From the NCBI GenBank assembly GCA_037043015.1, contig CM073324.1:20476097-20540096 (forward strand): DNA of 64,000 nucleotides, written 5' to 3'. Positions 15,739-42,133 of this stretch are shown here, one piece after another (position 1 is the stretch's first letter; each line of letters starts with the position of its first letter). The position numbers and the translations under genes are program-made. The notes below the pieces were generated by a model. It had not been told where the DNA came from and did not search any database. It worked only from the letters and a program-made list of their open reading frames with translations. The stretch is from Bryum argenteum (lineage: Eukaryota; Streptophyta; Bryopsida; Bryales; Bryaceae).

Positions 15739-15800
15739 GGGGAATGCTAGGACATGAGCGATGAGCCATGAGCCATGTGCCGTGAGCGCGATTCCATGAG
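15739..15800 (+). repeat. Terminal inverted repeat, left end
   Basis: This is the outermost sequence of the left arm. It is rich in tandem ATGAGC/ATGAGCC words and is repeated inverted at 48477-48538. A partial copy lies at 33962-34010. Confidence 0.75.
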
Positions 15801-16137
15801 CTGTGAGCGGATGACTTACTTTATTTAGTATATGCAATTCATCCATCAATGAGGATGAACTCATCCAGAATGAATGAATAATTTGCAAATGAACAAAGCA
15901 TTCTTCAAATGAAATGATGATTTGTATTCCGACATGTCAAATTAAATCATTACGATTGGAAAGCTTAGGTTAAAAAAACGGCTAATAAAACCTCTAGAGC
16001 CACTTGCAAGCCATGGCCAGGGATATCTCAAACATGGATTTCTGAATGGCAGCCAATTAGAGTTTACGAGAGTTTGTGGTCAGGTCCTAGACTAAAGGAT
16101 ACCAAATTTGAGGCAAGTGAATCTGTAGATTGCAGTG

Positions 16138-17172
16138 ATGGAGAGGGGTGAAGTGGAGAGAGGGAAGGAGCCCTGGTTTGCATTGGAGGTTTCTTTGCCC
16201 AACTGGGGGCTGGATCCTTCAAGAGATTGCAACCATGTGCAAAATTATGAGCTGGTAAGAATGTTCGGTGAGAGACAAAAGAAGAAAGGATATAACTATC
16301 TAGTAGCGAAGTCTGATAGAGTTAAACAGCGTGTGGAGGAATTGTATCCTACCATTTACCAGTGTAGTAAGATGCCCAAAAATGAGTGTATCTCGGAGAG
16401 TTTAGCAAGAGCTATTGTGTTTGAGGTTTGCTACGGCCATCCAATGAACTGGGCACAGTATGCGTCCGAGAGATGGAGAGTAAAAAGAAATGGGAAAAAT
16501 GAGGCGGTGATAAAGTATGGAGGAAAAGAGTCCAAAAATTCCTATTATCAATTGGTAAAGGCAAAAGTTGAGGGAGAGTTAGCAAAAACAGAACTGCAAC
16601 ACAGCGAGGTAGAGGCCGAATATAGCAATCGACATGTTTTCATTAGTAACCTGATGTCATCGCCGAAGATTCCAGCCAGTGGAGCCGAGGAAGAGAGAGT
16701 GAAGATACGGATATCTAGGCTCCGAGAACAGTTGCAGGTTTCAGAGGGTAATCTAAATACAATCGTGGAGAGTGGTCAACACGTGGATGAAAGATCAAGG
16801 AGGATCTAGCGACTTCAATCTATAATGCAGGACCTACAAGAGAAATCCGATCGATTGAGAGAGAAACTTTTGAAGATGGCCGAGAGACTCAAGATTCCCT
16901 TTACCATGCGCGCAAGTCAGCATGCTGAAGATTATCAATCGGCTCGGAGCACATCCCAGGTGACAGTTAAAGCATGTGCATTGTGTAATTCCAATTTCCG
17001 TCACATGGACATCATAGTTGCACCATGCAAATGCACATACCACCCTTGGTGCGTGGTCATGCAAAGCATGCAAAGCATGACAGAAGACCAGTGTGCCGAC
17101 AAGGAATGTAAGGAGAAGTTCACAGACAATTGGATGAGGAGTCTCGGCCTCGACAAAACGCTAGGTATTTAG
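16138..17172 (+). CDS. Coiled-coil and RING-like zinc-finger protein, one in-frame stop (left copy)
   Basis: The frame runs from ATG 16138 to TAG 17170-17172 and is broken once by TAG at 16807-16809. Before that stop lies a charged N-terminal region (YNYLVAKSDRVKQRVEELYP, MNWAQYASERWRVKR) and a long heptad-like coiled coil. After it the coiled coil resumes (LQEKSDRLREKLLKMAERL). It is followed by a Cys/His module CALCN...CKCTYHPWC...CADKEC, with spacing like a RING/C3HC-type finger. The uninterrupted coiled coil across the stop says this is one gene with a nonsense codon, not two. The other arm has the same stop. Zinc binding and ubiquitin ligase activity are inferences from spacing; no named family is claimed. 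Confidence 0.7.
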
Positions 17173-18261
17173 AGAAAACCATCTAAACTTCGAGCCAATG
17201 ACATCATATACAAAATCATGCATTGGTATGTTTGCATTTTCTCTACTGCATTTGAATAAATAACAAAGCAGTTGAAATAATGTATGGACAGAATATTACT
17301 TTGAAACGCAACCATCTGAAGGTCAACTGCCCCAGAGGAAGCGCAAGCATCTCAGCTCAGACATTGGAGGTGTTAACTTTTCCAAAAGGAAAAATAAAAA
17401 ATAGATGAGTCGGATCCAAACCGGTGAGTTTAAATTCCATCTGATTGAAATTATTCTGTTTAGTAGGATATAAACAATCAAAACTAACTCACGTATTAAA
17501 ATGCGGCACGACATGGTAAAATATTTCTCAGATTTGCAAGATAAGTTGTTCCAAACTAGACATCATAGGCTGTCACAAGGATCAGAATGGACAATGTACA
17601 ATTTCACACAAACTAGTACATGTTATAAGTTGTAAGTAACATTTTGTGGCAATATTATTCTATAACATCTAAGCATTTCCAGTGTTGGACTGTTTATATC
17701 TAAAATTTTGTTTTTGAATCAATTAGTGTATGAGGTCGGAATTGTAAATTACTAAAGTAGTTAATGATTTATGTGCAGATCATAGGATTTGAAGAGAAAA
17801 CCTAAGAGTACATGGCTGCCTAGGAGGAACACAAATTTGAATCATTGAATAGTATGATGATGCCTTCAAGGAATCAATGCAGGATTTAGTTCTTAACTCT
17901 TGAGAGAAACAATTCTACATAACTGGATATATGTCACTCCTTCACACATCGCGGTGAACAAACTTTTTGGAGAGAAGTGTTGAAAAACTAAACATCTTTG
18001 ATTTTATATTCGTAGGATATGGTACTAAATGCAAGAACCTGAAATGAAGGTTAAGTTGCTACCGGTGGCACTAGTGTAGAACACAATGAAATTGTATGAG
18101 TAAATATTGAATAGTAATATTGAACTCAAATAAGTTGCTTTGTATCCAGTCGGCACAGAACGCCTCATACACAATGGATAGCCAATGTTAATTGAAACAT
18201 CAAAGTCGCAAATATTCTAACAATGTGTTCTGTGGAACTATCAAAATCAATATAGTCTACA

Positions 18262-18420
18262 TACCCATTCGGCACCGAACGGGGTAGGCCAACCCAATTG
18301 TATGGGGTTGTTTGAATTGAGGGGAACGTGCTCTTTGCATGAAGACTATTGGATGAAATACACTGAGGACACCCATTCGGCACCGAACGGGGTAGGGCAT
18401 CTCAATTGCATGGTGACGTC
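18262..18420 (+). repeat. Two ~108-bp degenerate units with the TTCGGCACCGAAC box
   Basis: ACCCATTCGGCACCGAACGG at 18264 and at 18371 is followed in both by GGTAGG and a CAATTGTATGG/CAATTGCATGG word. The rest of the two units is only loosely alike (CTCTTTGCATGAAGACT against CTCTTTGCATGGAGACT). The same pair occurs inverted in the right arm. Confidence 0.75.
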
Positions 18421-19079
18421 TCCTCTTTGCATGGAGACTTGTGGGCCAAGACATAAAATACATGTTAGTTCGGGAGAGTAAACAACCGCATTCTGTACCG
18501 AACACTACACTCGGCCATAATTTGTTTGAGGTATTGAATCCATATTATCACGATGGAGCCTTCTCGAAATTGAGCCTCACTGTAGCTGTTCTTGCCGAAC
18601 AGCTTGTACAATACTTTATTTATTCTTAAAACATATAAGTTAATTGACGTAGACAATAATTTTAACAAAATGAATAACACTATTTATTTTCATAGAAATA
18701 TATAAATTTTTATTTACACTCTAGGAAAACACAATAAATTCCATGTAAGTATTCACTATATTGAAGATCTATATAAATTGTATAAAGTTTGAAAGTGTAT
18801 GAAAAAATATTTGGGATGTATTTGAATAAAATGATCTTAATCAATCAAAATTATGTGTTTATTTAATTATACTATGAGCTAGTCAAAGCTATCTCTATAT
18901 ATAAAAGAACACAATTAGGGTTTTGTCTGTCCGTCCTTGGTGATCCTTCCCGGTGGTAGGGCGGTTGCCGGTGAGAGTCCGGTTTGCTTATGTATACACG
19001 GTATGAAGAGTTTTAAAGATTTTGAAGGATTTCCGTAGGTGGTATTTGATTGTTATTAAGAATTTATTAAATCCCATTA

Positions 19080-19550
19080 ATGTAACAAGGAGTCGAAGGG
19101 ATATGGAATATAGAACATGAAAATGGGAGCAAAGTAAGGAGTGAATGGGAGATCAAGGAAAAATCGGAGGGGAACTATGAACGAGAAACAAAAGATAGGA
19201 AATGGGATCGCAAGATGGGAACTATGAACAAATAATAATATCCAGGAACAAATGATGGAAACTAGGAATGAATGATAGAAACCAGTAAGGGGAGGTGGAG
19301 GACAAGAATGGCGAAAATAATGGGAACCGGGAATGGGAGTTTGGAAATAGGGAACCATTAACAAGGAAAAGGAGAACAGAGAACTAGCACAAATGAGTGG
19401 GAACTAGGAATATGGGGACGAGGGAATAGAGGACATGCTATAAATCTTAAAAAGCGGGGGGACCATCGACGAGGGAACCAAGGATGATGGGTAGTATTTG
19501 AAGAGCACCAAATAAAGAGCTTACCCATGGGGACGAGGGGGACGTTACTC
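19080..19550 (+). repeat. Purine-rich degenerate repeat field
   Basis: The plus strand is strongly A/G-rich with recurring words such as GGGAACTATGAAC, GGAACTAGGAAT, GGGAACCGGGAATGGG and GGAACCATTAAC. The complement in the right arm (44710-45180) is accordingly C/T-rich. It looks like an old simple-sequence expansion of a GGGAACTA-like unit and has no stable coding frame. Confidence 0.7.
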
Positions 19551-19624
19551 ACAAATTAATTAAATACTATTTTTATTTTGTTTTTGTCCAAGAGACATCG
19601 GTATACAGAAGTCCTAACATGTAT

Positions 19625-20183
19625 CCTTCGGACTCGGACATCAAAAGGTCATATCAAAATTTAAAAAAACATATTAAAAATCCAAACGTAGGTATAAAAA
19701 AAATACGTAGTTGGAGGATTCTCAATAGGGTATAATTATTTTTTATACCTAGGTCTGGAATTTTGCATGGTTTCATAAATTTCAATCGAAGTTCAGGTTT
19801 AGACTAGGGCCAAGGCCAATTGAAAATGAAGGCCAATGCATCCTATGTGGCATGCACCAAAGCCTCCACTCCCTCATTAAATCATGAGCTTTAAATGGCC
19901 TGACATGGCCCCAAGGAAATGGAAAGAAATGCTCATTTTGGGAGCCCTCTTTTGAGAGGCTTGGGGCCATGTCAGTGGCTCTTACATGCTAATAAAAAAA
20001 TAAAATAGTGTAAGAAGGATACCATAAAATACTATTGGCCTCCATTCATGTATAAACTCAATGGGGCTGGCCTTAACTTCTACACCAATGGGGCAGCTCC
20101 ATTTCAGTGGCCCCAACCTTAAAAATTGGCCTTCACCCCAGTGTAAACCCGCCCCTAACCTTTTTGATGTCCGTGTCCGGAGG
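19625..20183. mobile_element. Nested MITE-like inverted repeat
   Basis: The ends are related as inverted repeats: CCTTCGGACTCGGACATCAA and onward (19625-19649) against the reverse complement of 20159-20183 (CTCCGGACACGGACATCAAA and onward). The interior contains another palindrome, TGACATGGCCCCAAG near 19903 with CTTGGGGCCATGTCA near 19960. The right end forms a strong hairpin (CCGTGTCC / GGACACGG). There is no coding capacity. Confidence 0.5.
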
Positions 20184-20649
20184 GACACGGGTTTACGACT
20201 TTTGTATGTATATAAAGTCTTCATATGTAATTATTTATTTAATATGTATAAAACATTTGGAATACAATGTATAAAACTACCTTTTAGATATCTATCAATG
20301 AATACATCTAGATATATAATTATATATCAACATATATCTACATTTATACTAATGACGACAAAATTGGAAATAGAAATACATTTGTAACATATGTCGTTGA
20401 ATATATAATTAGAGTAAAATGTGGAATCATAAATATATCCATGTATAAAACTAATCTCAAATTTATAAGGTTAAAAAATTATATATACCATATTCAATAT
20501 AAACATATCGATGTTAGTATTGTGTAATTGATAAATACATGATATAAACTTGACACTCGAAACATTAATACACTCATACATTCGAATCCATTGTTTTTGA
20601 ATTGTGCATGATGGTATAATATCTCAAAGATCAAATTACTCATTTTTGA

Positions 20650-20830
20650 AATGTGTTTACAGAATATTTAAAAACAAATATCACAAATAAATTATATATA
20701 TATAAATATATATATATATATAATTATAATTAGTATATTTTATATGCATATATTTAATATAATCTATACCATATAATAATTTTATGCATATATATACATA
20801 TATAATTATAAATATATGTGTAAAAACACA
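20650..20830. repeat. TA-rich low-complexity tract
   Basis: Long runs of TATATA and AATTATAATTA with almost no G or C. The inverted copy is at 43435-43580. It would melt easily and may be a breakage-prone site. Confidence 0.85.
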
Positions 20831-20939
20831 TAATGATTATCTTGTCCATGGTTGAATGAGTAATTACCTAACATTATTAATGAATTTAAATTTACTTCTA
20901 ATATTAGGAATAATAAGACTTGAGTTAAGTTTGGACATA

Positions 20940-21225
20940 ATGAATTTGGCCAAAATTGATTAGAAAAGTGCGCACATTACTAAATTTGCACCCAATTCAT
21001 TAGAAAATTTGGCACATTGTGAATTTGGAAATAATTCATAAGAAAAGTTTGGAGATAATGAATTTGGAAAAAAATTCATAAGAATAGTTGGTACATGTAG
21101 AATTTTGAATGAAGTGATAAAAACTTTTTGTACATTATAAGTTTTGCATCAATTGATAAACAAGTTTTGTACCACTTTGAAGAGAAGCATCAATTGATAA
21201 GCAAGCTTGTTAGAGAATATAGTTG
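20940..21225 (+). repeat. Degenerate ~40-bp tandem array (about 7 units)
   Basis: Units start near 20942, 20982, 21021, 21060, 21101, 21140 and 21181. Each has the form GAATTTGG..AAATTCATAAGAAAAGTT, grading into AAGTTTTGCATCAATTGATAA. The spacing stays at 39-41 bases although the sequence has drifted. Confidence 0.7.
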
Positions 21226-21309
21226 AAATTATGTTAGGCATTATGAAGAGAATAATTGCATTAGGCATTATAAAGAGAAAATTTCGTACACATATGCCCA
21301 AGTACCCCA

Positions 21310-21393
21310 AGTAAGTACTAGGGATGCCCAAGTAAGTACTAGGGATGCCCAAGTAAGTACTTGGGATGCCCAAGTAAGTACTTGGGATGCCCA
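21310..21393 (+). repeat. 21-bp minisatellite, four full units (left arm)
   Basis: Unit AGTAAGTACTAGGGATGCCCA, two units with TAG and two with TTG at the centre, with a partial fifth. The right arm has one full unit fewer, at about 42888-42955. The CCCAAGTA word also occurs in the VPS11 intron. Confidence 0.9.
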
Positions 21394-22148
21394 AGTAAGT
21401 AGCACCATACCTTCACTTTCATGCGTCTTGTAATGGAAAGTAGGGTACAATGACTTGAGTTAACACTTTGAATCATTGATCCTACATCATTAAAAATTAA
21501 TGCCCTTACTACGCACGCGAGCCCACGTACGCTGATATTGGCAAATTAAGCCGGTGCTCAAATTCGACCGCGCTCAATGGATACAACTATTGGAAACTGA
21601 TAGTAGAATATTCGACACCATAGTTACTAACAAAATATTGTGCCTTCACCCGATGATTCAGGAGTTACCAAGTCTACCGTTCTACTTCCAGACTCGGATT
21701 CGGAAGCTTCGTTGTCCACGAAGATGTTTCCTCTGTTGAGCCTTCCTTCTCTGTGGAAATCATCTTTGGGTGAATCTTGGTTTGCAAGTACATGTGCCAT
21801 CGCCGCAAATGTGGGGGAGGGAGTAAGTTGGAGACGGACTTCTGAAGAAGTCTGGATCCGCATAAAATGGTCTGAGAAAGGCACAAAGACCTGCAGAGGA
21901 CCGAATATGGTTCGATCATGGACCATGTGACAACATACAACAACGACGACAAGATGGTTATCGAATGACTGCAATTGCAAGTGAATGGCAACAACGACTA
22001 AAATGGTTCCTTCATCTAAATCTACAATAGACGAGGTCAACTATGAACCAAACTCAAAGGCGAATATCCAATGTTTAATTATAGGCTCAGGTGAACCGAA
22101 TTACAAAAAACGGCGACCTCGTAAATGTGCCATCAAAGGTAATAGAAT

Positions 22149-25100
22149 TCAGGGGCTCAAGAGCGCAGCGTCCATACCCCTTCCGTTGCGTGGCTTTGGA
22201 GATTCAGGTGGTTTTGCCATTGGCATCAAGACTGTCTGGAACATATTGTAATCCTCCTCGATTCCGAAGAAGTGACGACCAGAGGCACGGCAGGCACGGA
22301 GCGAAGCACCTGTAGATGCGGTAAGATCAACCACAATGTCCCCTTCTTTGGAGCACATATCTATGAGTGTTTGAAAGAAGACGTCTGACTTCTCGTGTGG
22401 ACCTCGCATTGGTTTTCGGTCAGCTCCAAGAGTGGGTGCTTGAACATCATTTCGGAGGCTCAAAAATCGCAACGGATCCTCTGGAGTGTTGGCTAGCAAA
22501 GGGTCTGAATTTAATTTCAGAGGCTTCGGAATTCGGTCCCAATCTGGTTTTCCTTGTGCGCGGCCAGTCTTCAACAGCAAGAGCGCCGAGAACATGTAGG
22601 TCTACAAATACAAAACAAGTAAATGTTAGATTAACTTCTACAACCCCTCCTAGTTCAGTTTCCATTATACGATCACATGCTATATGGATTTAAAATTATT
22701 GACACTAAAGAGAGTTAATAACCATACCATCATATCATCGTAAAGAGGATGTGTGAGGGGTTCTACTTGATGGCACGACCATTCGCATTTGGTCTTCAAT
22801 CTATGCTTCTCAATCCACCGCATAATCTCCCAGTTCATTCCCGAGGGCATGAAGATCAATATTCCTCCATCGTCATGGAGGAATCGAGATGCAAATTCGA
22901 AGCGGATGGTGTACCATTCTTTTGGTTTCCCACCCATAGAGTTCCACTGAGGGACTTGATTGCCAAATCCCGAGACAATGGAGTCAAACGGAGTATCAAT
23001 AATGATCAAGTCAACACATGGGAACATTCCCCTTTTGCCTCCAATGTAAGTCTCCTCATTACCGCGTGCCTACATTTTACATATAGAATATGTTATACAA
23101 GATTCATTCAAGTATCCAAATGAAATTTGCAAGAAATGACGGCATTTTGAGCAAGAAGTAGGTCGTGGCTCACACACCTTTCTGGCAAATTCTTCGAAGA
23201 CCCCATAATCAGACCCAAGGAAACTAGCCACTGCCTTGTTCTCAATCTGCTCATGGTAATCTGCTCCATGTGGAGCTCGACTAATCAGGCTGGTCCTTTG
23301 GACCGATGCCTGCGCTCCACCGAAACTACGGGCAGTGTGGGAGTGGGATCGAGAAGACCGAGCCTCTGATTGAGTCACCTCAACCAATTCGGTTTGGTCT
23401 TGGGCGTCCCCTTCAATGTGCTTACCTCTTTTTACGATCTCGTCTTCGAGTGGAGGCTGTTGTGCGCTGCGCTTGTTGCTCTTGGGAGCAACATCTCGAA
23501 GTGAATCCCGAACTGCTGGTGCCGAACGTGGACCCTTGGCGACTGTCGACAGACCGGTCCTCCCCTTTGCTTTATGGACTCGACCAACCACCACATCATG
23601 GGCTTGAGACTTGCCAGCACCTGGAATTTGAACTGGCGCTTGTCGATGGAAGGTAGGTTCAACTTGCTTTCTTAATTCGACAAGATGAGGTGGAGTTTCA
23701 TTCGGGTTCATTTCAATGTACCAATGGCAGGCGAAGAGATGGTCTTCTGACCAGTCGCCTGCCTGGTCCGCCATAAACATGGTCTCAGCATTGTGGATGT
23801 CTAACCACGAGGCAAAGCATGGATGAGCGTCCTGCACAACTCCTTCCTTGAGCAGATTGTGCGTCCAATACCTGGACAAAAAACCACCACAAAATGAGCA
23901 CATTCTGAAAGAAATTTGCATGTAGTATGGACTAAACATGAGAATGGCTTTGAATTTTTATGATCCAATCACCTGTAGATGAGTCGGTTCATTCTTTGGC
24001 TCCCCGTGCGGTTGTTTCGGTGAATCCCATTCGGCGGACTTGCTTATTTCCTTCCTCATAATTGGGAGATTAAATGCATAGTCCCATTGGTGAATCTTGT
24101 GGTAATCAATGTACTTCTCCAAGGACTGGGAGCATGGTTTTCCCGAAGTGGGGTAATCCATCATAATGGAATTGAACAACTGTAACGATGCTACCTTCAG
24201 CTGATACCAAAAGATATACTTGTGAAGGTAATTAGTGAATACGACGTCATTGATAGGGGATATAGGAAATTTTTTCATCTTACGATCCGATTTTGTTGAG
24301 TTCCAAAGCTTGAGTAGATACTCCTTCTCCGATGGTGGAAGGCACGCCGAAGCTAAGTTCTGGAGCTTCTCTGTAGTCATCTCCGCATTGATATTGGTTG
24401 ACCAGTGCTTTGCTATCTGCCGTGTTATCCAAATGTACATGTTAGCTAAACTTGAATAAATCAACATAGAAAATCAACTCGAATAGTAACATAGGACAAG
24501 GAGACTCTGGGACGCCGTTCGGCAACGATAGAGGGGTTCAGGCCTAGCATCGGCCACATCAAAAATTGCTGGTCTTAGGAAACAATGTCAGCGGAGTGGC
24601 AGTCCAATGCTGACGGAGAATGGAATGAACATGCCGTACATCCAGATTTTTAACTTCTGAGTCATCGTTCGGTACGGAACAGTTACTTAAATTGTAGCCA
24701 CTGGGTTTGTACTTGGCTTGCGAAAATTGACCATACTGACCCTATTCGGCACAGAATGACTATTACAAGGACGCCATATTCTAGATAATTTCCTAGTAAA
24801 CATCTTGAAAAGACCTTACCTCAGCCAAGAAGTTCTTCCCATTTGCAGGATTAGCAATCGCCAAGTGCTTATTGAATGGAGCCGTAAGAGCCTTCCTCTT
24901 TGCCTCCATGGCCCCGTTAATGGCCGCATTGAGCCCCTGAGCTGTTCGACGTCTTCTTGGAGTATCTTCTTCATACTTTCGTTGGCCCTCATCTCCAGCC
25001 TCCATGATGTCTTGCTGTCAATACGAACAAGGATGAATCAGCTTAGGCCGATCAATGATACCCTCAAACACTATAATGAAATTGGGAGATGGCTTACAGT

Positions 25101-26600
25101 GTGGATGAAGTCAAGAAACTTTGCCCTCGAAATAGGATACCATGGCCTCTTCTCAAGTGGGACATCTTGTTGTTTTCTTGCAACTACCATCTCGTCGTAG
25201 CTGAGAATGTCTTTAAACTTATCGAGCGATAGAGATCCAATCTTTTGAATGCGGTGCAGCGTATGCACAAGATTCTGCTTGACATGGCTGTTTTCGTTCG
25301 ACTTGTTTATATCATGCATGGCTGTTAAAACGTCTGTTACGTCCTCAGCAGTCCGGAGGACGATTGACCGAACCCGATAATGCCAGTCCAAGTCGTGCTT
25401 ATGAGATCTCCGAATGAAATCATACCATGCCACAAGTCGATGGTTACCGTCCCATACATAGAAGAATTTGTTGGAAAGCGCGGACAATTCTGGGTCTGCC
25501 TTCAGGAAAGCTTCAAACTCCCTGTCCCTTGTGCGCCAGTGTGTACTCCACTTTGCTCGATCCGCTTCAGATACCGTTTTCTCCTGGCCCTCGAAGTTAG
25601 TGATTGATACATAGAAGACCGACGCTCCATCCCGGTACCCATGCGAGAACTCAGCCTGCATCTTGGCGACATCATGCTCTAAGGCAGGTCTCACAACTTG
25701 AAGCTTGCGCATTCGACAGAGCGGAATATGCATCTGTGACTTCCCGGGACCAAACATCTCAAGCCTTTTGAGTATCTGGATCGAATTGACACGCGTCTTC
25801 CGATGGGCCACGATCATTCCATATTCCTCCTTCGGGTCTAACGGCATTGGTCTCGGGCCACCATCTCCATTTGATACGACATCGTCTTCATCGTCATCAT
25901 GTTCTTGATTGATGTCATCAAATCCACGACCTTCCGGATCACTTAGTCCTCCCTCATCATGGTCATGGTCAGAATCTTACTCGTGTCCCTCGTCCATTCC
26001 AGAGCTCTCACCTGACTCATCATGCGTAATGGGGACTGCACAACGCCGGTGAACACATGAGATTTTTAACATAGAAATTAATTAGTCAGAAGGCACAGAT
26101 CAAATCAACATACATCCAGCGTTCGGTGCCGAACTCGTCATTCACCGTGATACGAATGTAGATGCTTAGTACCTTGGATAGCATTGGGTGCAACTTGCAA
26201 ATCTTGATCTTCGATATTGTTGCCATGGTTGGAGTGCTCATCATCAGCTTGCGACCCTAGAATAATCGACCACTTAGTTAGGTTTCTTTGAAATGAATCC
26301 ATAACTCAACGAAAATTTAGATAGCTTCAATGAATAATCAAACCTGCCGCATGAGTTGCATTGGGGTCGTTGTCGTAGTCAAAATCTTCAATACGCGGAC
26401 TCTGTCGGTCATTCCACGAAAAGGATATGCGAGACAATGATTTAGAAAATGGAGTTCGTCACGAAACTTCATTCAAGACTCAATATGAAGCTTGGATATC
26501 TTTACGGATCTTACCGTAATTGTTACCAAAGTTCAAGTTTGACTTATCCGAGCGATGCAGAGACACCCCTCATCATCACTGTCGGATTATGCCGCGCCAT
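22149..26600 (-). CDS. ParB/Srx-like domain plus beta-class DNA methyltransferase, left copy (partly intact)
   Basis: Exons d-i on the minus strand: 26035..25098, 25014..24820, 24416..23973, 23871..23178, 23069..22728, 22601..22149. Three short 5' exons start at ATG 26600; exon c is 26256..26173. Exon d encodes an acidic linker, then a ParB/sulfiredoxin-like region with FYVWDGNHRLVAWYDF, the GxHR-type motif of that fold. Exon h has LIIIDTPFDS, a DPPF-like motif IV. Exon i has VVDLTASTGASLRA..GRHFFGIEE, an AdoMet motif I. The order IV then I is that of beta-class N6A/N4C methyltransferases. Problems: TAA at 25977-25979 in exon d, shared with the other arm; a phase mismatch between the third and fourth of these exons (24416..23973 and 23871..23178); and exons a/b damaged (stop, lost AG). 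The domain calls come from motifs; substrate is unknown. Confidence 0.65.
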
Positions 26601-27755
26601 TGGATATGCTCTCTACAAAACCAATAATACATCGCTGTCAGGCACTCTTAATTACACAAGAAGCACCCATTCGGCGACGAATTCATATTGGACGAATACT
26701 TTTGCGTGATTACAATGTTAGCATGATCACCTGTTCCGTACATAACATGACCCTATTCCCTATTCGATGCACGAACATGACCCTATTCGGTACAGAACAC
26801 CGTTTTATTTAAGCGCGTCGAACCCAATAGGGTCACACCACTCACACTGCTATACATAAATATACTTATTATAGCAATCGTATTGAGTAATCGAGCAATT
26901 CACATGGATATAGTCCAATAAATCAATCAACTCAACTAATTATTTCACAAGTACTTGTCGTTCGGTACAGAACTCCATAATTCACCCATAAATATAGAGG
27001 AACTAAGTAGATCAGCTGTTGGTGTTCGTCACATAATGGGTGATGTAGTCTACTAGCATGCAATATGAAAGAAAAAGGGAATGAAAACTCATTAGACACA
27101 GTGAAGGTGTTCATCACAAAATCAGGGCCGAATAGAGAATTTGATCATATATCAAAGCCATGGAAAGATGGTCGTAGAAAGTTAATCGATCCTACAACTG
27201 ATACGATATCTTGAGTTCGGTGCAGAACGTGTCACTTCTCTCTAATCTACCAGTCCACACAAACAAGTGACTGCACAGACGGCATAAATTTCGCATCAAG
27301 ATTAATATCAATCCAATTAGACGTTCGGCACAGAACTAGATCTGAACATTAAGATCGACCTTCATATTGAGATCGACCATCATACATTGAGATCGACCAT
27401 CATACATCAGAAACTCACCAGAATGCAAACTCGGTTACAGCTACTTCACAAACATGTAATACTTTGGCCTTCTAGAACTGATATATACACAGAGGCCACT
27501 CATTGTGGTTGCCGTTCAGAATTGGAACCCTAGCACTAGTAGCCGCCAAATGTATTTTTCGGCAACCTAGCCAATGATTACCATTCATCCAAGCATCCAA
27601 TTGTCGACGAATGATGTGATAACTTCCTATCATTCCTAGTGAGCTACATTCCTTGTCGAGCCTATTCAGTTACTCATCAGTGTAATCACTATCATTGGAT
27701 GAGTCACCTCTCCATGCATATCCGGATGCAGCAGGATTAAACCGGATCTAGAATC
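26601..27755. other. Upstream region of the left ParB-methyltransferase gene
   Basis: Non-coding. It contains at least five copies of the TTCGGTACAGAAC-type box (26734, 26786, 26961, 27216, 27324) and a short direct repeat GATCGACCATCATACATT near 27370-27410. It ends at the LTR-derived block. It probably includes the promoter of the ParB-methyltransferase gene. Confidence 0.5.
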
Positions 27756-28082
27756 TGTAAGATCGTGGATTTTGTTTATGACATAAGAAACGAAAATCAC
27801 ATTCAGGACGATTACTGTAGGAAATAATAGTTTCATACAGAATAATACTGTAAGAGTCTAGCTGTCAAAACAAGCAAAAACTACAAAAGAAATATATTGA
27901 TCCAAGACTTAGGTTTACAATGAATAAGAGTCCCTTATATACTAACCTCTTGGCTCAACTGCCGAGGCTATACTTTAGCTCTACTGCCGAGGCTATACTT
28001 TAGCTCTACTGCCGAAGTTCTATTTATAAAATTAATAGCGAGTGAACATCCGAGCTTATCAACGAGGCCTTGGCCCATGACA
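27756..28082 (-). repeat. LTR of a Ty3-type retrotransposon at the inner end of the left arm
   Basis: Read on the minus strand it begins TGTCATGGGCC and ends CGATCTTACA, the TG...CA form of an LTR. It has a TATATAAG box and two copies of GCTAAAGTATAGCCTCGGCA. It matches the 3' LTR at 36200-36527 with several clustered differences. No internal retrotransposon sequence adjoins it on this side. Confidence 0.8.
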
Positions 28083-28120
28083 AATACATTAAAGTTCGAA
28101 CATGAAACAAACTTACCACT

Positions 28121-28284
28121 TCGTTTATGGTAGAGAATGGTTGAATCTCCCTCCGTTTGTAGGTATTCGTGAAGAACTCCAAATCGCCTCCTCTTGATGA
28201 GAGTGGGTCGCTTTCTCTATTCGAACTCTCAGCTAAACCCTCTAACAACGCCTTTGCTCTCCTAACTGCTCTTGTCTCGACCAT
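28121..28284 (-). CDS. First exon of an unknown gene (MVETRAVRRAKALLEG)
   Basis: ATG at 28284 on the minus strand opens MVETRAVRRAKALLEGLAES. The exon ends at a good donor (GTG|GTAAGTTT) near 28120, shortly before the arm junction and LTR at 28082. A TATA-like CCTATAAGAAG lies about 60 bases upstream. The remaining exons are not visible, so the gene is probably cut off by the rearrangement at 28085. The start is vaguely like some Ty3 gag N-termini, but the upstream intron signal argues for a spliced gene. Identity unknown. Confidence 0.4.
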
Positions 28285-28973
28285 ATCTTAGAAGACAATG
28301 AAACTATCATCTTGATTTGAAGAGAGGTGTGGTTTGGTGCCCTTCTTATAGGGTCGGGGCTGTTGTACACATGTCCGAGGTGGCACAAAGGTTTAGCTAA
28401 AATGAAAGTTTTCGGCGCCTTCAATCATTAATACTATAATGTTTTGAATTAAAGTGAAAATGATAAACGCGGCCGATTAATAATGGACAGTTACGCATAA
28501 AGTTAGAGCATTTTGTAAGCACGACTTTGGTGGCATAGCACACTGTTGTGCTCTAGGACGGCGATACCCCAAAATATTTGATGCCATTTGTCACTATTTA
28601 ATTCAATAGATGCCCATATTTGTTTTATTCGCTTATCACACCTATTAGTAGTACTAAATATCACCAGGCTATAGCAACCTCTAACAATCCTATCTAATAT
28701 TGACTTCTAATATATTCCACGTCGCATTCTCAATTATTAAATTACACGTCACTATTTTTAACTATGCCTTCTTATAGTCCTGACTCCGTGAAAGGCCATT
28801 ACATACGAGAATGCCAAATTGGTTCATAATTTTTACAGACGTCCTAAATGTAGACTTCCAGCCGCCATCTACCAGCCCACAAAAATTTGGGGTTCTGACG
28901 TATCTATCTACCTAGCATCACAAAATAAGCTCTATTAGCTGGCCATTGTTTTGTAAGTTCCAAGTACTATTGA
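28285..28973. other. Divergent promoter region between the MVETR exon and the transposase
   Basis: About 690 non-coding bases between two divergent start codons (28284 minus and 28974 plus). AT-rich, with no repeats I could place. Confidence 0.4.
28343..28353 (-). promoter_or_regulatory. TATA-like box upstream of the MVETR exon
   Basis: Minus-strand CCTATAAGAAG, about 60 bases before the ATG at 28284. The distance suits a plant core promoter with a short leader. Confidence 0.4.
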
Positions 28974-31900
28974 ATGGCCTCGTCCTACTCCATACTCACT
29001 CATTGTAACTTCCACAATGGCGCATCCAATGTTGTTTCCTTCCGTCTCATGTCTTCGTCTCTTCCCTTTGTACTCCATGTGGACGATGATGGATTCATAG
29101 TTGTCGATGAGAGAATTCTTTGTCTTAGATTTCAACTGCAAGAGTCATCTTTGATTGTTGAGAAAGAGGAGTTTGATAGGGATGGAGCTGTTGTACGAAC
29201 TATATATCAGAAGCCTCATGTCGTGGATGGCAAGACCACCTATAGACTTACTGCAGGAAACTATACAATCATTGGTGGCCTACAGTCACTACATTTGTCA
29301 CAGTCGTCTAGTGCGACTCCCCGAAGAATGTCATGTCCAGTGCGTCATCTAAAGAGTAGATTACCCACGGTCAGTGAAACTCCTGAGAATGCAATTCATA
29401 TTGTAAGTTCTGACGATGAAGACAGCGAATCTGATGGATATCTTCAGGGTCCATCCCGGTCTAAGGCTGATGGAGTTAAGAAGGAGATCGACAACGCATT
29501 AAAGGTGATCAACACTCCATCCTCGGACAGCTTCAGTGAAGATTCGTTTTTGAGAGCAGATACGTTGTCCAGAACAATTGATTCTGAGACTCCATCATGT
29601 GACACCCCTCGATCGACTTCCTCAAATCGCAGTTTCTCAAAGGCACCATCGACTACGAGCCCGCTTTCCATTTCCACAGATTGTGTTGTTCCCAATACTC
29701 AATCTCAGGATCCCCATCCGTCTGTCTCATCAGAAGGCATTATTTCAGGGACTCCATCGCCTGCCATTGTGAACAACGATTCGAGAGACTATACGACCAG
29801 ACTCTCTCCTGACTCTCAGAGATCCATACCAGATGCAGTGACACCTATATTAGATTCTTCTGAAAGGAGGTCTAAGAGTCTGAGCTTGGCGGACACCTCA
29901 CTATCATCATTCGTGAGCATTTACGATTCGATTGTGGCATTGGGGAATCAGCGGATGTCCAAGAGTGACTTGAAGTCTGCCGATCTTGCTTCATTCTCAC
30001 ACCACAAGGTGAAGTATCTCCCTGTCAAGTTCAATGGGAATGTTATCTTCGAGTTGCCAAATTTACCTGCTGTGAAGGAGGGAGGAGCTGGATTGTTGGA
30101 CGGAATGGATCGTAGAAGTGATGGGCATGCGTGGACTGAGACAGCTACTACAAATATTTGAGATCCTAAATCCCAGCTGTCATTTAAATATGTGAAGTGT
30201 CTTGGGCACTTACGGTGTTTGAATAGCACTTGCCCTCAGATTGAACCGACTGGAGATTATAACGACCTGTATTGGGAAGGATCTACTCCTGAGGTTCTTA
30301 CCCCAGGCCCTAACCCTCAAATTCCAAAGAAGTGGTCACTTGTTTGTCGTTTCTGCAAGTCTCCACCATCATGTCTGAAGTTGTGCTTTTGCAAAATGTA
30401 CTACATAGTGTCCAAAAATCCTGCAATGTCAAGAGCGGCTGTTCATTTTGGCTTCCATGATCATCCCGTTGCTACAGGAGATTGTAGGGAAGCTCTAGAT
30501 CTAATTCGTGAAGAGATTCTAACTCAAGTGTCCCGGACACCAAGTGCAAAGGTTAGTGCCATTGGCTTGGCAGTTGGTCGACAGTTGCTTTTGAAGGGCC
30601 TTGTGGATGAGAGTTGTGAAGGAAAGAAGTTATCAGATGATGAACTGAAACAAATATTTGATAAGTGGGCAAAGCTGAGCACTCCTAGTATTCGGAATAT
30701 GATAGCTGAGGCTAGGAGTTTTTGTGGTCAAGGTGGATATATTGACAACATCTTGAAGTTGAAGAAGTCGTCGACTTATGACTATATTCACGACAGCGTT
30801 TTTCCTGGGCAAGGCAAAGACTTGGTCTACCTCTTCAAGATGTCAACGTGTGGTGTTGGAAGTGGAGTTGACCTTGTTAAGAGGATGCAAGCAGGTGGGG
30901 ACTTGGAGAACGAATGGGCAATGTTCGACCACGTGAAAAGAGTGAAGGAGTGGACCACTCTTGGCATCCACATTTACGATCCGGACTATCGAAAAGTCAT
31001 GACCATTGCTGTTTGTGATATGCAGTCGGAAACTGCAGAGGCCCAAGAAAGGATGTGGATGTCCATGTTGAATATTCTAGACAAGCATGGGGTCACCAAC
31101 GTTAATTTCAAAGGGTTTATGGCGGACTCTGCGCAAGCAAACTTTAACGCTGTTCGTACCATATTCGGATCGGGAAATCCAAAGGAGAAAATGGAGGGGA
31201 AGGAGCGCACTTGTCAATTCCATTGGTCAATGGCTCTTGACAGGCACACAAAGCAGCTTATCAAACCAGAACTCCAACAAATCCATGTGAAGCTTTGTCA
31301 AGATTACCGGAAGTCCCGATCAAAATCGGACGCTGATGCTGCTTTGGCCTCTATTAAAGCTTGGTGGTTTTCTTCCGGTGCTGTTGCGGAAGGGTCCTTG
31401 AAAGAGCTCAATGACTGGATAAATTTCTGGCATTTTAGATTTCACCAGTGGGGCTCCCATGTTTCAGAGGTAAATCACCGAAACCCTTGAAATTCTTTTT
31501 TGACTTCCAAATTTCCCCGTTCCACAAGTTTGCCCTAAATTTAGGCATTCGTTACAGAACTACTACAATGCAAACCCTAAATTGTGTCGTTCGTTACCGA
31601 ACTGCTAGACTTGGAACCCTAAAAAGTGTAGTTCGTTACAGAACTACTATATTACAACCCCTATTATTCGTAGTTCGTTACCTATCAGCTGTATTCCATG
31701 CCCTACTTTTGTTAGTTTGGTACCGTACGGCTACAATCAACCAATACCTTATAAGGTATTGGTTGATTTATCATGGTTAGAATTGGACCTTGCTCGGCGA
31801 TTTCTGTACAGAACAGTGTTCCATTGTATAATTTGCCCTGCTAGTTCCATAGCATAATTTGCCCTTGTAAATGCTGTTCTTTACAGAATGACATATGATT

Positions 31901-33579
31901 GCTAATTTGAATATTGCAATGCATTTGTTTGCCTCTCTTTTAATGACATGTTTTTTATTTTTTTGATTACTCATGTATTCGACACGTACTCTGATCGATT
32001 CATTATTCTGAACTTAGTTGAATATTCTCATACTATTGTAGATTTTACTTCTCGTACTTAAATTTGTCGTTTGCCCCCTCTTGCAGTTCCTCTCTCTTGA
32101 AGAAGAAGCATCTATGCCCACATGTAATTTGTCTGAGACTGTGCATAACAAGTGGCTGCAAGCTTCAGGCAACAATATGGTTGACTCTCTGACGCTTCGC
32201 CGGGGCGATTCATCAGAGAGCGGCTTTACAATCGACTCAATTCCACAACTTTTTGAAGGGACACCTTGGAGGATCCGGGGCCTTGTAGGAATGTCACCGA
32301 AGTTGCGCGCAAATGACTTCGAAATGGTAATCCGGTGAAAGTAGCTCAAATTGTTGGTCGATCTCGATTGATCTTTGGTTTAAACTCACGGGTTCCTCAT
32401 CCGGAAGGTGAGAGTATTTTTGGGTCAACAAAACGTAAGTTGGACCTTCCTCCTGGCGATGACGATGATTCGCGTCGGCATGATCGAATCAACTTCTCCA
32501 TTCCAAAATTGGGAAAACATTCGACACTAGGGGCAACGCGTTGCTTGAAGCGATCTCCAAAGACAACCGACGTTGTTTCAGATACTATGCCACCTGTTGT
32601 AGCAGTGGTAACTCGCAACAACTTGCCTATCCGAGAGTCACCATGTACTAATCCTTTAGAATGGCGCATTGAGCGTATTTCGCCACAATGCAAGGACCAG
32701 TGTAGGGGATACAATGGTGATGGCAAGAGGTGCAACGCTCGCATTGCCAAGTACAGGCGACCTACTGCTGCTCCTACATTTACTGGAATTCAAAGGAAGT
32801 TCAAATCGAATGACACCGAAAGAAAGCAATTACGGTTTTGTCCCACTAACCTTGAGGCTTGTGTGATGGGTGGACGTTCGAAATACATCATGCATTATGC
32901 TGATGTGCCAGAAGTTTGGCCAGTCATGACGGGTACTAATTTGTCCCGGATTGAAATTCAAGGTCTAGAGTCCGCTGGTTTTAAGCTTGATGAAGGATTT
33001 GTGAGCCACGTCAAGGACAAAATTGGTTTTAAACTTGAAGGTCATGCACCGGCAAACCGTGGAGGAACACCAGTGGACCGCTTTCAGTGGAGTGATCCAA
33101 TATACTCTGAGAGCGATGTCAACAATGTTCCCAGGCCACCCAAGTCATCTGGGGATTATAGGCCCACAATGCGAGAAGGTAAGAAATTCAAGAATGTTGC
33201 AGAGCCATCATCTGAGCATATTGCAAAATTTAACAGATCCAAGACAATCGAGTGTTCTCTCCTGAAGGCGAGAAAGGTCCCTCGTCGTGGTTATGGATAT
33301 ATTTTTACTATCCACACTCCGGGATCTATTGCCAAGAATCAGCTATACGAAGTGACCATTGGTGATTTTCCAGCATGCACGTGTCTCGACTTTGTCACAA
33401 TGAAGACCAGTGCCCTAGGCCGTGGCCAGAAGAAATGGATCCTCTGCAAGCATCTTTACTTCTGCCTGCAGAAGTTCATGGATTGTACGATGGAGGATAA
33501 GTTCATCCATCGCCCTGCTTGGACGTTCAATGAAGTCAGTATGTTGACAAATAAAGCTGATTGGTCTGGTTACACATAG
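28974..33579 (+). CDS. Mutator-like transposase with SWIM zinc finger (one stop, one frameshift)
   Basis: Exon 1 28974..31469 and exon 2 32087..33579 (GT at 31470, AG at 32085-32086, phase kept). The first ~390 residues are Ser/Thr/Asp-rich and likely disordered. TGA at 30159-30161 is in frame; the frame then continues into a Cys/His region (KCLGHLRCLNSTCP, CRFCKSPPSCLKLCFC, FHDHPV) resembling WRKY/GCM1-type DNA-binding modules. The catalytic region follows: IHIYDPDYRKVMTIAVCD, FKGFMADSAQANFNAVR and ERTCQFHWSMALDRH, as in DDE MULE transposases. Exon 2 shifts frame near 32323. It ends with a SWIM finger, CTCLDF...CKHLYF. SWIM plus a MULE core is typical of MuDR/FAR1-type proteins. Probably inactive as sequenced. 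Confidence 0.8.
31470..32086 (+). other. Intron of the transposase gene with a 42-bp periodic box array
   Basis: A GT-AG intron of 617 bases. Its first part holds five 42-bp units, each with a TTCGTTACNGAAC-type box. Single boxes follow at 31802 and 31877. A hairpin AACCAATACCTT / AAGGTATTGGTT lies near 31738-31766. Confidence 0.8.
31548..31757 (+). repeat. 42-bp tandem array of the TTCGTTACMGAAC box
   Basis: Boxes start at 31548, 31590, 31632, 31674 and 31716, exactly 42 bases apart (four helical turns). The sequence between them is poorly conserved but keeps a CCCTA word. The fourth and fifth boxes are degenerate. In one frame it reads as a 14-residue repeat (VVRYRT...). Confidence 0.88.
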
Positions 33580-33961
33580 GATTTTCAACTATGATGGTCT
33601 TCATTAGATATTTCAGCAAGGGTGCACTACTATGCTATAGAATTCTATACTTCGGGATGTTCAAATAGAGTAGTTTGATTTGTTACTTTTAGCATTCCTA
33701 TTTATATTGGCAATTTGCATTGCTTGGTTTTGATTGGATTTATGCCAATTAAATAAGCATCCTCTATTTGTTTGTTAATTTAATATTAATATATTTTTTT
33801 ACTTTATATCACTTATTCATATTTACTTAGTGGCACCTTCTGTATTGTACATTTCTCCTTCCAATATGAGATGAATGTCATCTATGACAAATATTCTGTT
33901 CCATTTCATCCACAGTCTACATCCGGAAAAAAAACGTGAAATTTACTAAAATTAGAAAAAT
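33580..33961. other. 3' region of the transposase gene
   Basis: Non-coding, AT-rich sequence between the transposase stop and the terminal repeat at 33962. No boxes or other genes seen. Confidence 0.5.
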
Positions 33962-34010
33962 TACATGAGCCATGAGCGCCCATGGCTCATCGCTCATGTC
34001 GTAGCCTCCC
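33962..34010 (-). repeat. Third copy of the element terminus
   Basis: CATGGCTCATCGCTCATGTC and the following TAGCCTCCC match the outer end of the right arm (CATGGCTCATCGCTCATGTC then TAGCATTCCCC). The block also holds an inner inverted repeat (ATGAGCCATG / CATGGCTCAT). Its right edge is directly followed by retrotransposon coding sequence, marking a sharp insertion boundary. Confidence 0.8.
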
Positions 34011-36176: not shown

Positions 36177-36194
36177 GAGGAGGAGGAGGAGGAG
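36177..36194 (+). other. Polypurine tract
   Basis: GAGGAGGAGGAGGAGGAG run just before the LTR, in the position expected for plus-strand priming of a Ty3 element. Confidence 0.65.
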
Positions 36195-36199
36195 ACATT

Positions 36200-36527
36200 T
36201 GTCATGGGCCAAGGCCTCGTTGATAAGCTCGGATGTTCACTCGCTATTAATTTTATAAATAGAACTTGGCAAAGAGAGCTAAAGTATAGCCTCGGCAGTA
36301 GAGCTAAAGTATAGCCTCGGCAGTTGAGCCAAGAGGTTAGTATATAAGGGACTCTTATTCATTGTAAACCTAAGTCTTGGATCAATATATTTCTTTTGTA
36401 GTTTTTGCTTGTTTTGACAGCTAGACTCTTCTGAGATATTATTCTGTATGAAACTATTATTTCCTCAAGAATCGTCACGAATGTGATTTTCGTTTCTTAT
36501 GTCATAAACAAAATCCACGATCTTACA
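36200..36527 (+). repeat. 3' LTR of the chromovirus (inner end of the right arm)
   Basis: Starts TGTCATGGGCC after the polypurine tract and ends CGATCTTACA. It has TATATAAG at 36341 and two GCTAAAGTATAGCCTCGGCA units. It is 328 bases, against 327 for the copy in the left arm. The sequence after it (GATTCTAGATCCGG) is the same in both arms. Confidence 0.85.
36341..36348 (+). promoter_or_regulatory. LTR TATA box
   Basis: TATATAAG inside the LTR about 140 bases from its start, a plausible U3 promoter element. Confidence 0.55.
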
Positions 36528-37686
36528 GATTCTAGATCCGGTTTAATCCTGCTGCATCCGGATATGCATGGAGAGGTGACTCATCCAATGATAGTGATTA
36601 CACTGATGAGTAACTGAATAGGCTCGACAAGGAATGTAGCTCACTAGGAATGATAGGAAGTTATCACATCATTCGTCGACAATTGGATGCTTGGATGAAT
36701 GGTAATCATTGGCTAGGTTGCCGAAAAATACATTTGGCGGCTACTAGTGCTAGGGTTCCAATTCTGAACGGCAACCACAATGAGTGGCCTCTGTGTATAT
36801 ATCAGTTCTAGAAGGCCAAAGTATTACATGTTTGTGAAGTAGCTGTAACCGAGTTTGCATTCTGGTGAGTTTCTGATGTATGATGGTCGATCTCAATGTA
36901 TGATGGTCGATCTCAATATGAAGGTCGATCTTAATGTTCAGATCTAGTTCTGTGCCGAACGTCTAATTGGATTGATATTAATCTTGATGCGAAATTTATG
37001 CCGTCTGCAATGTGCGATCACTTGTTTGTGTGGACTCGGTAGATTAGAGAGAAGTGACACGTTACGACCGAACTCAAGATATCGTATCAGTTGTAGGATC
37101 GATTAACTTTCTACGACCATCTTTCCATGGCTTTGATATATGATCAAATTCTCTATTCGGCCCTGATTTTGTGATGAACACCTTCACTGTGTCTAATGAG
37201 TTTTCATTCCCTTTTTCTTTCATATTGCATGCTAGTAGACTACATCACCCATTATGTGACGAACACCAACAGCTGATCTACTTAGTTCCTCTATATTTAT
37301 GGGTGAATTATGGAGTTCTGTACCGAACGACAAGTACTTGTGAAATAATTAGTTGAGTTGATTGATTTATTGGACTATATCCATGTGAATTGCTCGATTA
37401 CTCAATACGATTGCTATAATAAGTATATTTATGTATAGCAGTGTGAGTGGTGTGACCCTATTGGGTTCGACGCGCTTAAATAAAACGGTGTTCTGTACCG
37501 AATAGGGTCATGTTCTGTACCGAATAGGGAATAGGGTCATGTTATGTACGGAACAGGTGATCATGCTAACATTGTAATCACGCAAAAGTATTCGTCCAAT
37601 ATGAATTCGTCGCCGAATGGGTGCTTCTTGTGTAATTAAGAGTGCCTGACAGCGATGTATTATTGGTTTTGTAGAGAGCATATCCA
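36528..37686. other. Upstream region of the right ParB-methyltransferase copy
   Basis: Inverted counterpart of 26601-27755. It holds TTCTGTACCGAA-type boxes near 36947, 37317, 37493 and 37516. Some left-arm boxes are altered here; for example the 27216 box reads GTTACGACCGAAC in this arm. Confidence 0.5.
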
Positions 37687-40600: not shown

Positions 40601-42133
40601 CATCTTGTCGAATTAAGAAAGCAAGTTGAACCTACCTTCCATCGACAAGCGCCAGTTCAAATTCCAGGTGCTGGCAAGTCTCAAGCCCATGATGTGGTGG
40701 TTGGTCGAGTCCATAAAGCAAAGGGGAGGACCGGTCTGTCGACAGTCGCCAAGGGTCCACGTTCGGCACCAGCAGTTCGGGATTCACTTCGAGATGTTGC
40801 TCCCAAGAGCAACAAGCGCAGCGCACAACAGCCTCCACTCGAAGACGAGATCGTAAAAAGAGGTAAGCACATTGAAGGGGACGCCCAAGACCAAACCGAA
40901 TTGGTTGAGGTGACTCAATCAGAGGCTCGGTCTTCTCGATCCCACTCCCACACCGCCCGTAGTTTCGGTGGAGCGCGGGCATCGGTCCAAAGGACCACTG
41001 ATTAGTCGAGCTCCACATGGAGCAGATTACCATGAGCGATTGAGAACAAGGCGGTGGCTAGTTTCCTTGGAGTCCGATTATGGGGTCTTGAAGAATTTGC
41101 CGAGAAGGTGTGTGAGCCACGACCTACTTCTTGCTCAAAATGCCGTCATTTCTTGCAAATTTCATTTGGATACTTGAATGAATCTTGTATAACATATTCT
41201 ATATGTAAAATGTAGGCACGCGGTAATGAGGAGACTTACATTGGAGGCAAAAGGGGAATGTTCCCATGTGTTGACTTGATCATTATTGATACTCCGTTTG
41301 ACTCCATTGTCTCGGGATTTGGCAATCAAGTCCCTCAGTGGAACTCTATGGGTGGGAAACCAAAAGAATGGTACACCATCCGCCGTCAATTTGCATCTCG
41401 ATTCCTCCATGACGATGGAGGAATATTGATCTTCATGCCCTCGGGAATGAACTGGGAGATTATGCGGTGGATTGAGAAGCATAGATTGAAGACCAAATGC
41501 GAATGGTCGTGCCATCAAGTAGAACCCCTCACACATCCTCTTTACGATGATATGATGGTATGGTTATTAACTCTCTTTAGTGTCAATAATTTTAAATCCA
41601 TATAGCATGTGATCGTATAATGGAAACTGAACTAGGAGGGGTTGTAGAAGTTAATCTAACATTTACTTGTTTTGTATTTGTAGACCTACATGTTCTCGGC
41701 GCTCTTGCTGTTGAAGACTGGCCGCGCACAAGGAAAACCAGATTGGGACCGAATTCCGAAGCCTCAGAAATTAAATTCAGACCCTTTGCTAGCCAACACT
41801 CCAGAGGATCCGTTGCGATTTTTGAGCCTCCGAAATGATGTTCAAGCACCCACTCTTGGAGCTGACCGAAAACCAATGCGAGGTCCACACGAGAAGTCAG
41901 ACGTCTTCTTTCAAACACTCATAGATATGTGCTCCAAAGAAGGGGACATTGTGGTTGATCTTACCGCATCTACAGTGCTTCTTCTCCGTGTGCCGCCGTG
42001 CCTCGTCGTCACTTCTTCGAATCGAGGAGGATTACGGATGTTCCAGGCAGTCTTGATGCCAATGGCAAAACCACCTGAATCTCCAAAGCCACGCAACGGA
42101 AGGGGTATGGACGCTGCGCTCTTGAGCCCCTGA
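37687..42133 (+). pseudogene. ParB/Srx-like plus DNA methyltransferase gene, right copy (decayed)
   Basis: The 5' exons are in good order here: 37687..37771, 37870..37941, 38029..38112, then 38250..39190, all in phase, and they define the gene start (MARHNPTGD). The same in-frame TAA as in the left arm lies at 38306-38308. Later parts are broken. There are frameshifts near 38540 and 38900 in the ParB-like exon. There are changes in the next large exon and its donor (CAGGTGATT became CAATGATT near 40313), and a premature stop after SVQRTTD (near 41003). The AdoMet motif I in the last exon (41694..42133) is destroyed by small indels. Exon 41216..41557 with the DTPF motif remains open. This copy cannot encode a working methyltransferase as sequenced. 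Confidence 0.75.

Follow-up and report, generated by a model that had tools for sequence, protein, structure and literature searches.

A methyltransferase-fold gene in the core of a MULE-like DNA transposon family of the moss Bryum argenteum, with palindromes that differ between subfamilies

A stretch of 64,000 nucleotides from the moss Bryum argenteum (assembly GCA_037043015.1, contig CM073324.1, positions 20,476,097 to 20,540,096 of the forward strand) was analyzed; this whole stretch is hereafter referred to as the window, and positions are counted from its first letter. The window contains a DNA transposon with two divergently oriented genes. One codes for the transposase. The other, referred to below as the second gene, joins an exon with a GNHR motif (the GNHR exon), several middle exons and two exons coding for a methyltransferase domain. 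We found that these two conserved genes, in divergent order, form the core of a transposon family, and that several subfamilies have, in the non-coding DNA near the second gene, clustered palindromes with a CGGTRCCG-like core and with flanks that are specific to the subfamily. We propose that the second protein may dock on the palindromes of its own element as an anti-silencing or transposition helper, by analogy with VANC of the VANDAL Mutator-like elements (MULEs), and give this reading a probability of about 0.45.

Individual exons were searched against the moss's own genome (258.8 Mb, 25 contigs). This revealed at least 172 stretches matching the GNHR exon (134 of 1564 first-look candidates scored), at least 95 matches of the transposase exon (95 of 1326 scored) and at least 150 matches of the methyltransferase exon of a relative, L069 (150 of 703 scored). 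Comparisons of position were made with 133 listed GNHR-exon matches; matches to the exon end only and two further fragments of copy B, a second copy of the element in the window, were omitted. A listed GNHR exon was present within 20 kb of 32 of the 95 scored transposase matches (chance mean 2.06, largest of 500 values 8), and 30 of these 32 pairs were divergent. Sixty-three of the 150 methyltransferase-exon matches had a listed GNHR exon within 8 kb upstream, in the same orientation and at a median distance of 2.1 kb (chance mean 0.29, largest of 300 values 3). The exon order GNHR, middle, methyltransferase was retained in all four relatives fetched over the range (L068 to L071).

The two genes also diverged together. 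Across nine elements, identities of the GNHR exon rise and fall with those of the transposase (Mantel r 0.86, a value reached in 6 of 2000 permutations), with one exception, element L012/L065 (about 95% versus 63% to its nearest kin). For pairs with synonymous divergence (dS) of 0.1–0.4, the median ratio of nonsynonymous to synonymous divergence (dN/dS) was 0.144 for the GNHR exon (48 pairs) and 0.111 for the transposase (49 pairs); at dS of 0.01–0.1 it was 0.25 (29 pairs) and 0.236 (28 pairs), respectively, the pairs being non-independent and the loci the best-scoring ones. Thus, the GNHR exon is under purifying selection at a level close to that of the transposase. An earlier interpretation, made from the sequence alone (the sequence-only reading), had regarded the gene as cargo of the element. 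This is contradicted by the many copies that share the gene, by its fixed divergent linkage to the transposase and by divergence in step with it. MULEs tend to take up host gene fragments, as described in a MULE survey (PMC6446971), and a captured passenger without function for the element would be in line with this habit; linkage, co-divergence with the transposase and purifying selection make such a passenger very improbable and rule out cargo or capture as the whole story.

The element in the window and its transposase gene are laid out as follows.

15739..34010: copy A, a MULE-like DNA transposon of about 18.3 kb, with ends GGGGAATGCTAGGACATGAGCGATGAGCC (left) and GGGAGGCTACGACATGAGCGATGAGCC (right, inverted)
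36197..48538, minus strand: copy B, an inverted copy truncated to the left two thirds of the element, found by self-BLAST
28974..33579, plus strand: transposase gene, divergent to the methyltransferase gene, with an intron at about 31470-32086
16138..16806, plus strand: open reading frame (ORF) of 223 amino acids inside the element, outside the conserved gene pair

Copies A and B stand head to head and are 98.4% identical over 12.4 kb; copy B had been missed in the sequence-only reading. The arms of the inverted repeat are window positions 15739-28085 and 36197-48538. Dating of the two copies was given up, because only 7 of the 60 A–B substitutions in the gene region are isolated and the others are grouped in small patches, a pattern that errors of assembly or polishing would produce. 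A third, collinear copy of about 18.8 kb starts at position 9871193 of contig C7. Its ends carry the terminal inverted repeats GGGGAATGCTAGGACATGAGCGATGAGCC and GAGGGAGGCTACGACATGAGCGATGAGCC, and it is flanked by a 9-bp target duplication, TTTGTTTTG. For copy A, the flanks had no word of six or more bases in common, and the outer ends of copies A and B showed no target duplication between them either. According to PMC6446971, target duplications of MULEs are 8–11 bp long, usually 9 bp.

Inspection of the transposase by eye revealed candidate D, D and E residues, a CxxH after the second D and a C-terminal SWIM-like CxC..CxH motif. The transposase gave no meaningful match in Pfam (none above the cut-off) or in PDB, and no relatives of it were found in viral contigs. 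A Mutator-like assignment of the family therefore rests on the element ends and the 9-bp duplication, which fit such elements, and on the motifs seen by eye. The 223-amino-acid ORF, perhaps a captured host gene, has a 96% identical match with a stop codon at position 8427474 of contig C10 and weaker matches (23–36%) at many loci of the genome. Outside the element, a gypsy retrotransposon-like remnant with RNase H and integrase motifs (by eye) occupies positions 34011-36196 by the right end of copy A, and host genes for a leucine-rich-repeat protein (by eye) and VPS11 lie at 1693-4239 and 10656-12771.

The second gene of the element was assembled by setting exon boundaries by hand with the C7 copy as a guide. 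Six core exons with GT-AG boundaries were obtained on the minus strand, between 22149 and 26035; extra 5′ exons reaching to about 26600 are likely. In the direction of transcription the exons are as follows.

25098..26035, minus strand: GNHR exon, with the GNHR domain (its ParB/Srx-like label is unproven) and an acidic part upstream of it
24820..25014, minus strand: middle exon, with counterparts in relatives and no family found
23973..24416, minus strand: middle exon, conserved in relatives
23178..23871, minus strand: middle exon, its start conserved, followed by a linker
22728..23069, minus strand: methyltransferase exon with motif IV, DTPF
22149..22601, minus strand: last methyltransferase exon, containing motif I (DLTASTGAS) and the stop codon; it matches PF01555 on its own (3.5e-6)

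A Pfam search with the joined middle region of L069 gave no match. In the same relative, a 472-amino-acid open frame with weak coiled-coil-type matches lies 3′ of the methyltransferase gene (positions 100-1515 of L069, minus strand).

The two joined methyltransferase exons matched PF01555 over profile positions 1-214 of 221 (E value 1e-7, 32.6 bits, curated score 26.7). Of five aligned members, four matched the profile at E values up to 1. When a profile of five members was compared with solved structures, it matched DpnA over the end of the domain (5e-8) and CcrM over nearly its full length (9.3e-7). Motif IV precedes motif I, i.e. the order is permuted. On the strength of the PF01555, DpnA and CcrM matches, we consider it established that the gene codes for a permuted beta-class amino-methyltransferase domain of the N6/N4 type. 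The window domain is 22–31% identical to phage methyltransferases (best E value 1e-5, among the 20 of 390 records listed); that of L069 matched no phage sequence at an E value of 10, and a single relative of the methyltransferase was found in viral contigs. An exon-by-exon search of the own genome with PF01555 revealed two places only, copy A and the C7 copy, and no host methyltransferase exon of this family. These results bear out part of what had been said of the gene: its exons and the GNHR, DTPF and DLTASTGAS motifs are located inside a transposon as claimed, the beta-class layout with DTPF before DLTASTGAS agrees with the permuted match to PF01555, and the gene has introns and lies within a eukaryotic element, as stated; "in a plant" fits as well.

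In line with what the sequence-only reading had proposed, this domain might be an active writer, methylating adenine N6 or cytosine N4 in the element and so marking or hiding it. Beta-class enzymes carry (D/N/S)-P-P-(Y/F/W) in motif IV. The DTPF of the window subfamily keeps the acid, the proline and the aromatic residue, and the four phage enzymes compared have DIPY, DIPY, DLPY and SPPY. The residue E229, which we take to be the usual acidic residue after motif I that binds S-adenosylmethionine (SAM), is invariant. Together with the near whole-domain match to PF01555 and CcrM, these features speak for a writer. Against it stand the five relatives from outside the window subfamily that were read, none of which has the aromatic residue: L069 and L070, which are near-identical, have D-Y-P-D, L071 has D-A-P-E, L072 has D-L-P-E and L068 has D, a stop codon, P and D. 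Codons for D-Y/F-P-D-G are present in 55 of the 150 methyltransferase-exon matches, a further point against a writer; the pattern occurs at 88 places, 33 of them outside the listed matches, compared to 26 for the reversed control.

The copies at hand argue in the same direction, as none of the copies of the window subfamily in the window and on C7 was found to be intact. In copy A, the acidic part of exon 25098-26035 of the methyltransferase gene contains an in-frame TAA, which copy B shares and for which the C7 copy has CAA. Relative to C7, exon 23973-24416 of copy A has an additional base that changes the reading frame, and the transposase gene of copy A has an in-frame TGA at 30159-30161. 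The C7 copy is free of these defects but has others: exon 24820-25014 contains a TGA, the frame differs close to the end of exon 23178-23871, and the transposase frame is broken. With the motif IV aromatic residue lost in the relatives and the window copy broken, methylation activity is doubtful for many copies, and we hold an active DNA writer to be unlikely. Copies without the aromatic residue may bind SAM without methylating.

GNHR is present in all eight aligned members and in all 29 translated loci, and it agrees with the GxxR P motif that PMC12704722 gives for the ParB-CTPase fold. The same source describes phage proteins in which this fold is fused to PF01555. GNHR could thus mark a true ParB/Srx nucleoside triphosphate-binding fold, and the protein would load at the palindromes, which lie close to the GNHR gene, as ParB does at parS, and spread from there along the element as a clamp. 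No ParB signal was detected with Pfam on eight GNHR-exon members, or in a PDB profile search with the GNHR exon. Alignment of the exon with 79 bacterial ParB sequences by hhalign gave a probability of 0.1, with a query of little diversity (effective number of sequences, Neff, 1.84). In an hmmsearch for ParB, with 536 ORFs and 1000 shuffled sequences as a background, moss sequences reached at best −0.6 bits and did not exceed the shuffles (best 4.3). A search of the own genome with the PF02195 profile gave a single weak match, below the cut-off (E value 1.49), at an unrelated place. A single-sequence AlphaFold2 model of the GNHR exon alone had a predicted local distance difference test score (pLDDT) of 36.8 and was uninformative on the fold. 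Since every sequence-based statistical test came out negative, the ParB label is a motif-based conjecture, and we consider a ParB-type clamp quite improbable. Accordingly, of the two profile matches predicted for the joined exons by the sequence-only reading, the one to N6_N4_Mtase was obtained (1e-7) and the one to ParB was not, so that its ParB/Srx-like domain is left with the GNHR motif. Its proposal that a ParB-methyltransferase fusion had been acquired from bacteria found no support either: searches with the GNHR exon revealed no relatives in viral contigs, bacterial genomes, plasmids or phages.

The non-coding DNA of the element is rich in palindromes. A scan for a 14-bp palindrome family, GTTCGGTACMGAAC, on both strands with up to three mismatches gave 59 matches in the window, compared to 3.53 expected; none of 100 shuffles reached this number. 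Copy A has 18 such sites, none of them in predicted exons (P 5e-5 if placed at random), distributed as follows.

18148..18503: four GTTCGGTACMGAAC-like palindromes in the left non-coding part
24667..24757: two palindromes in an intron of the methyltransferase gene
26121..26134: one palindrome immediately upstream of exon 25098-26035
26733..27336: five palindromes between the divergent genes
31547..31889: six palindromes in the transposase intron, partly within 42-bp tandem repeats

A separate scan of the C7 copy revealed 15 such sites (largest of 10 shuffles, 5). The shorter word CGGTRC alone was not above chance over element A (14 versus 6.05 expected, largest shuffle 15), so the signal in this element is the longer palindrome.

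Upstream of the GNHR exon of other subfamilies, different versions of the palindrome were found when sites of 6 of 25 loci were compared: GTCTCGGTACCGAGAC (L012, L026), TGCCGGTACCGGCA (L017), TGCCGGTGCCGGCA (L019, L023) and GTGCCGGTGCCGGA (L031). Summed over all 25 loci, the stretches upstream of the GNHR exon hold 129 occurrences of CGGTRC versus 14.9 expected, and the downstream stretches 8 versus 9.2 expected; the reversed words number 6. The upstream count exceeded all 200 shuffles at 14 of the 25 loci. No palindromes were found in L068 to L071, each covered over 7.5 kb from at or near the GNHR exon downstream; in relatives, clusters appear only upstream of this exon (one shuffle per locus, largest 4).

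The CGGTRCCG-like core was chosen on these 25 loci, and a fair test is therefore a genome-wide count of the 16-bp GTCTCGGTACCGAGAC. It was found at 48 places, and no place had its reversed word. Forty of the 48 places lie 0–5 kb upstream of 15 of the 133 listed GNHR exons (chance mean 0.16, largest of 500 values 2), and none within 5 kb downstream. Thirty-three of the 40 places, and 4 of the 15 genes, are outside the sequence that defined the motif; five other places lie upstream of methyltransferase matches. The 14-bp TGCCGGTACCGGCA occurs at 131 places, compared to 1 for its control, and 20 of 50 listed places are upstream of listed GNHR or methyltransferase exons. Arrays of TGCCGGTACCGGCA on contig C1 are found at 679339, 10429006, 13693015, 19561325, 19979339 and 20024751; they may be a satellite or a non-autonomous derivative that kept the sites.

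Docking might work as follows. A dimer of the second protein would bind to the palindromes of its own element and, once docked, would help the element to evade silencing or to transpose, as VANC does for VANDAL MULEs. At the palindromes, the methyltransferase domain could act as a DNA-modifying enzyme, which is possible for the window subfamily with its DTPF; where the motif IV aromatic residue is lost, it would serve as a SAM- or DNA-binding module without catalysis. The docking and anti-silencing reading draws on the fact that clusters of sites in non-coding DNA change between subfamilies, as in the VANDAL/VANC case. We tentatively consider a more specific form, which we hold to be somewhat unlikely, of a self-recognition system in which the protein, ParB-like and with a methyltransferase fold, co-diverges with parS-like palindromes whose core is fixed and whose flanks are specific to each subfamily. 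The protein of each subfamily would recognize its own DNA, modify or occupy it and thereby lift silencing or guide transposition.

Several observations weigh against docking by the second protein. The exact window form of GTTCGGTACMGAAC occurs at only two places genome-wide, both in the window, compared to 21 for its reversed word; this version therefore belongs to this element only. Eleven of the 25 loci do not beat all 200 shuffles for CGGTRC, and L018, L024 and L030 are without it. The CGGTRC core was picked from the same 25 loci in which it was counted, a perfect CGGTACCG counts double in the tally (shuffles included), and the counts are non-independent, since the loci are copies related to one another and some contain tandem repeats. 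Three of the 48 GTCTCGGTACCGAGAC places have no listed exon nearby, and 30 of the 50 listed TGCCGGTACCGGCA places are in arrays with about 190-bp spacing away from listed exons. In the flanks of 30 transposase loci CGGTRC was not in excess (downstream 19 versus 20.9 expected, upstream 13 versus 15.4).

Finally, the transposase rather than the second protein could be the binder of the palindromes. Plant transposons often carry repeated transposase-binding sites, and accessory proteins such as MURB and TnpA are thought to be transposition co-factors. If the palindromes were sites of this kind, the second gene would be a co-factor of transposition without a role in silencing. The dN/dS values, which show the transposase to be equally conserved, are compatible with this. 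The sites, however, are internal, between the genes and in introns, away from the element ends, and the excess of CGGTRC is seen upstream of the GNHR exon, the flanks of the transposase exon showing none. We regard binding by the transposase as a less than convincing explanation, with the odds well against it, and retain docking of the second protein on its own element's palindromes as the preferred one.

An earlier report of this architecture was not found in the literature searched, much of it available in part and not covering Iyer et al. 2016 on eukaryotic adenine methylation; the main text of the MULE survey PMC6446971 has no mention of methyltransferase, ParB, Physcomitrella or moss. Within this literature the setting is new: in a land plant, a DNA transposon has one of its core genes built on a permuted methyltransferase fold of bacterial type, retained while subfamilies diverged and accompanied by palindromic sites in the non-coding DNA of the element itself. 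Questions that become testable with this family are whether a land plant has elements of this kind that write N6-methyladenine (6mA) or N4-methylcytosine (4mC), whether a methyltransferase fold that is degenerate could act as a factor of self-recognition, and whether VANC-like anti-silencing originated independently in another plant lineage.

Several known systems resemble the moss element in part. Phage fusions of the ParB-CTPase fold to PF01555 (PMC12704722) likewise combine a domain with the GxxR motif and PF01555 in one protein and belong to mobile elements. In contrast to them, the moss gene is eukaryotic, has introns and a long middle region and, in the relatives read, an atypical motif IV, and no test revealed a sequence relation of its GNHR domain to ParB. 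Many-copy transposable elements with DNA methyltransferase domains are described in PMC5890265 and include SymbioLINE-Dnmt, SymbioDIRS-Dnmt3, KnitGypsy-Dnmt3 and DIRS elements with Dam-like genes; DNA transposons with DNMT are mentioned there for marine viruses. These elements are mainly retrotransposons with C5-cytosine or Dam-like enzymes, whereas the moss element is a DNA transposon of a land plant in which the PF01555 domain is permuted and encoded by a gene of its own, divergent to the transposase. The N4CMT of bdelloid rotifers and the 4mC methyltransferase of Marchantia (PMC8885841) share with it a permuted PF01555 domain or a 4mC enzyme of bacterial origin in a eukaryote, but both are described as host genes outside transposons, and activity of N4CMT was shown. 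A further parallel is that of the Arabidopsis VANDAL MULEs and their anti-silencing proteins, VANC, with short motifs that are clustered in non-coding DNA, often in tandem, and differ between related families (PMC5735166). Both systems consist of a MULE-type transposon with an accessory gene and with clusters of sites in introns and upstream regions. Unlike VANC, the accessory protein of the moss element combines a methyltransferase fold with a GNHR domain, its putative docking sites are palindromic, and their core is similar from one subfamily to another.

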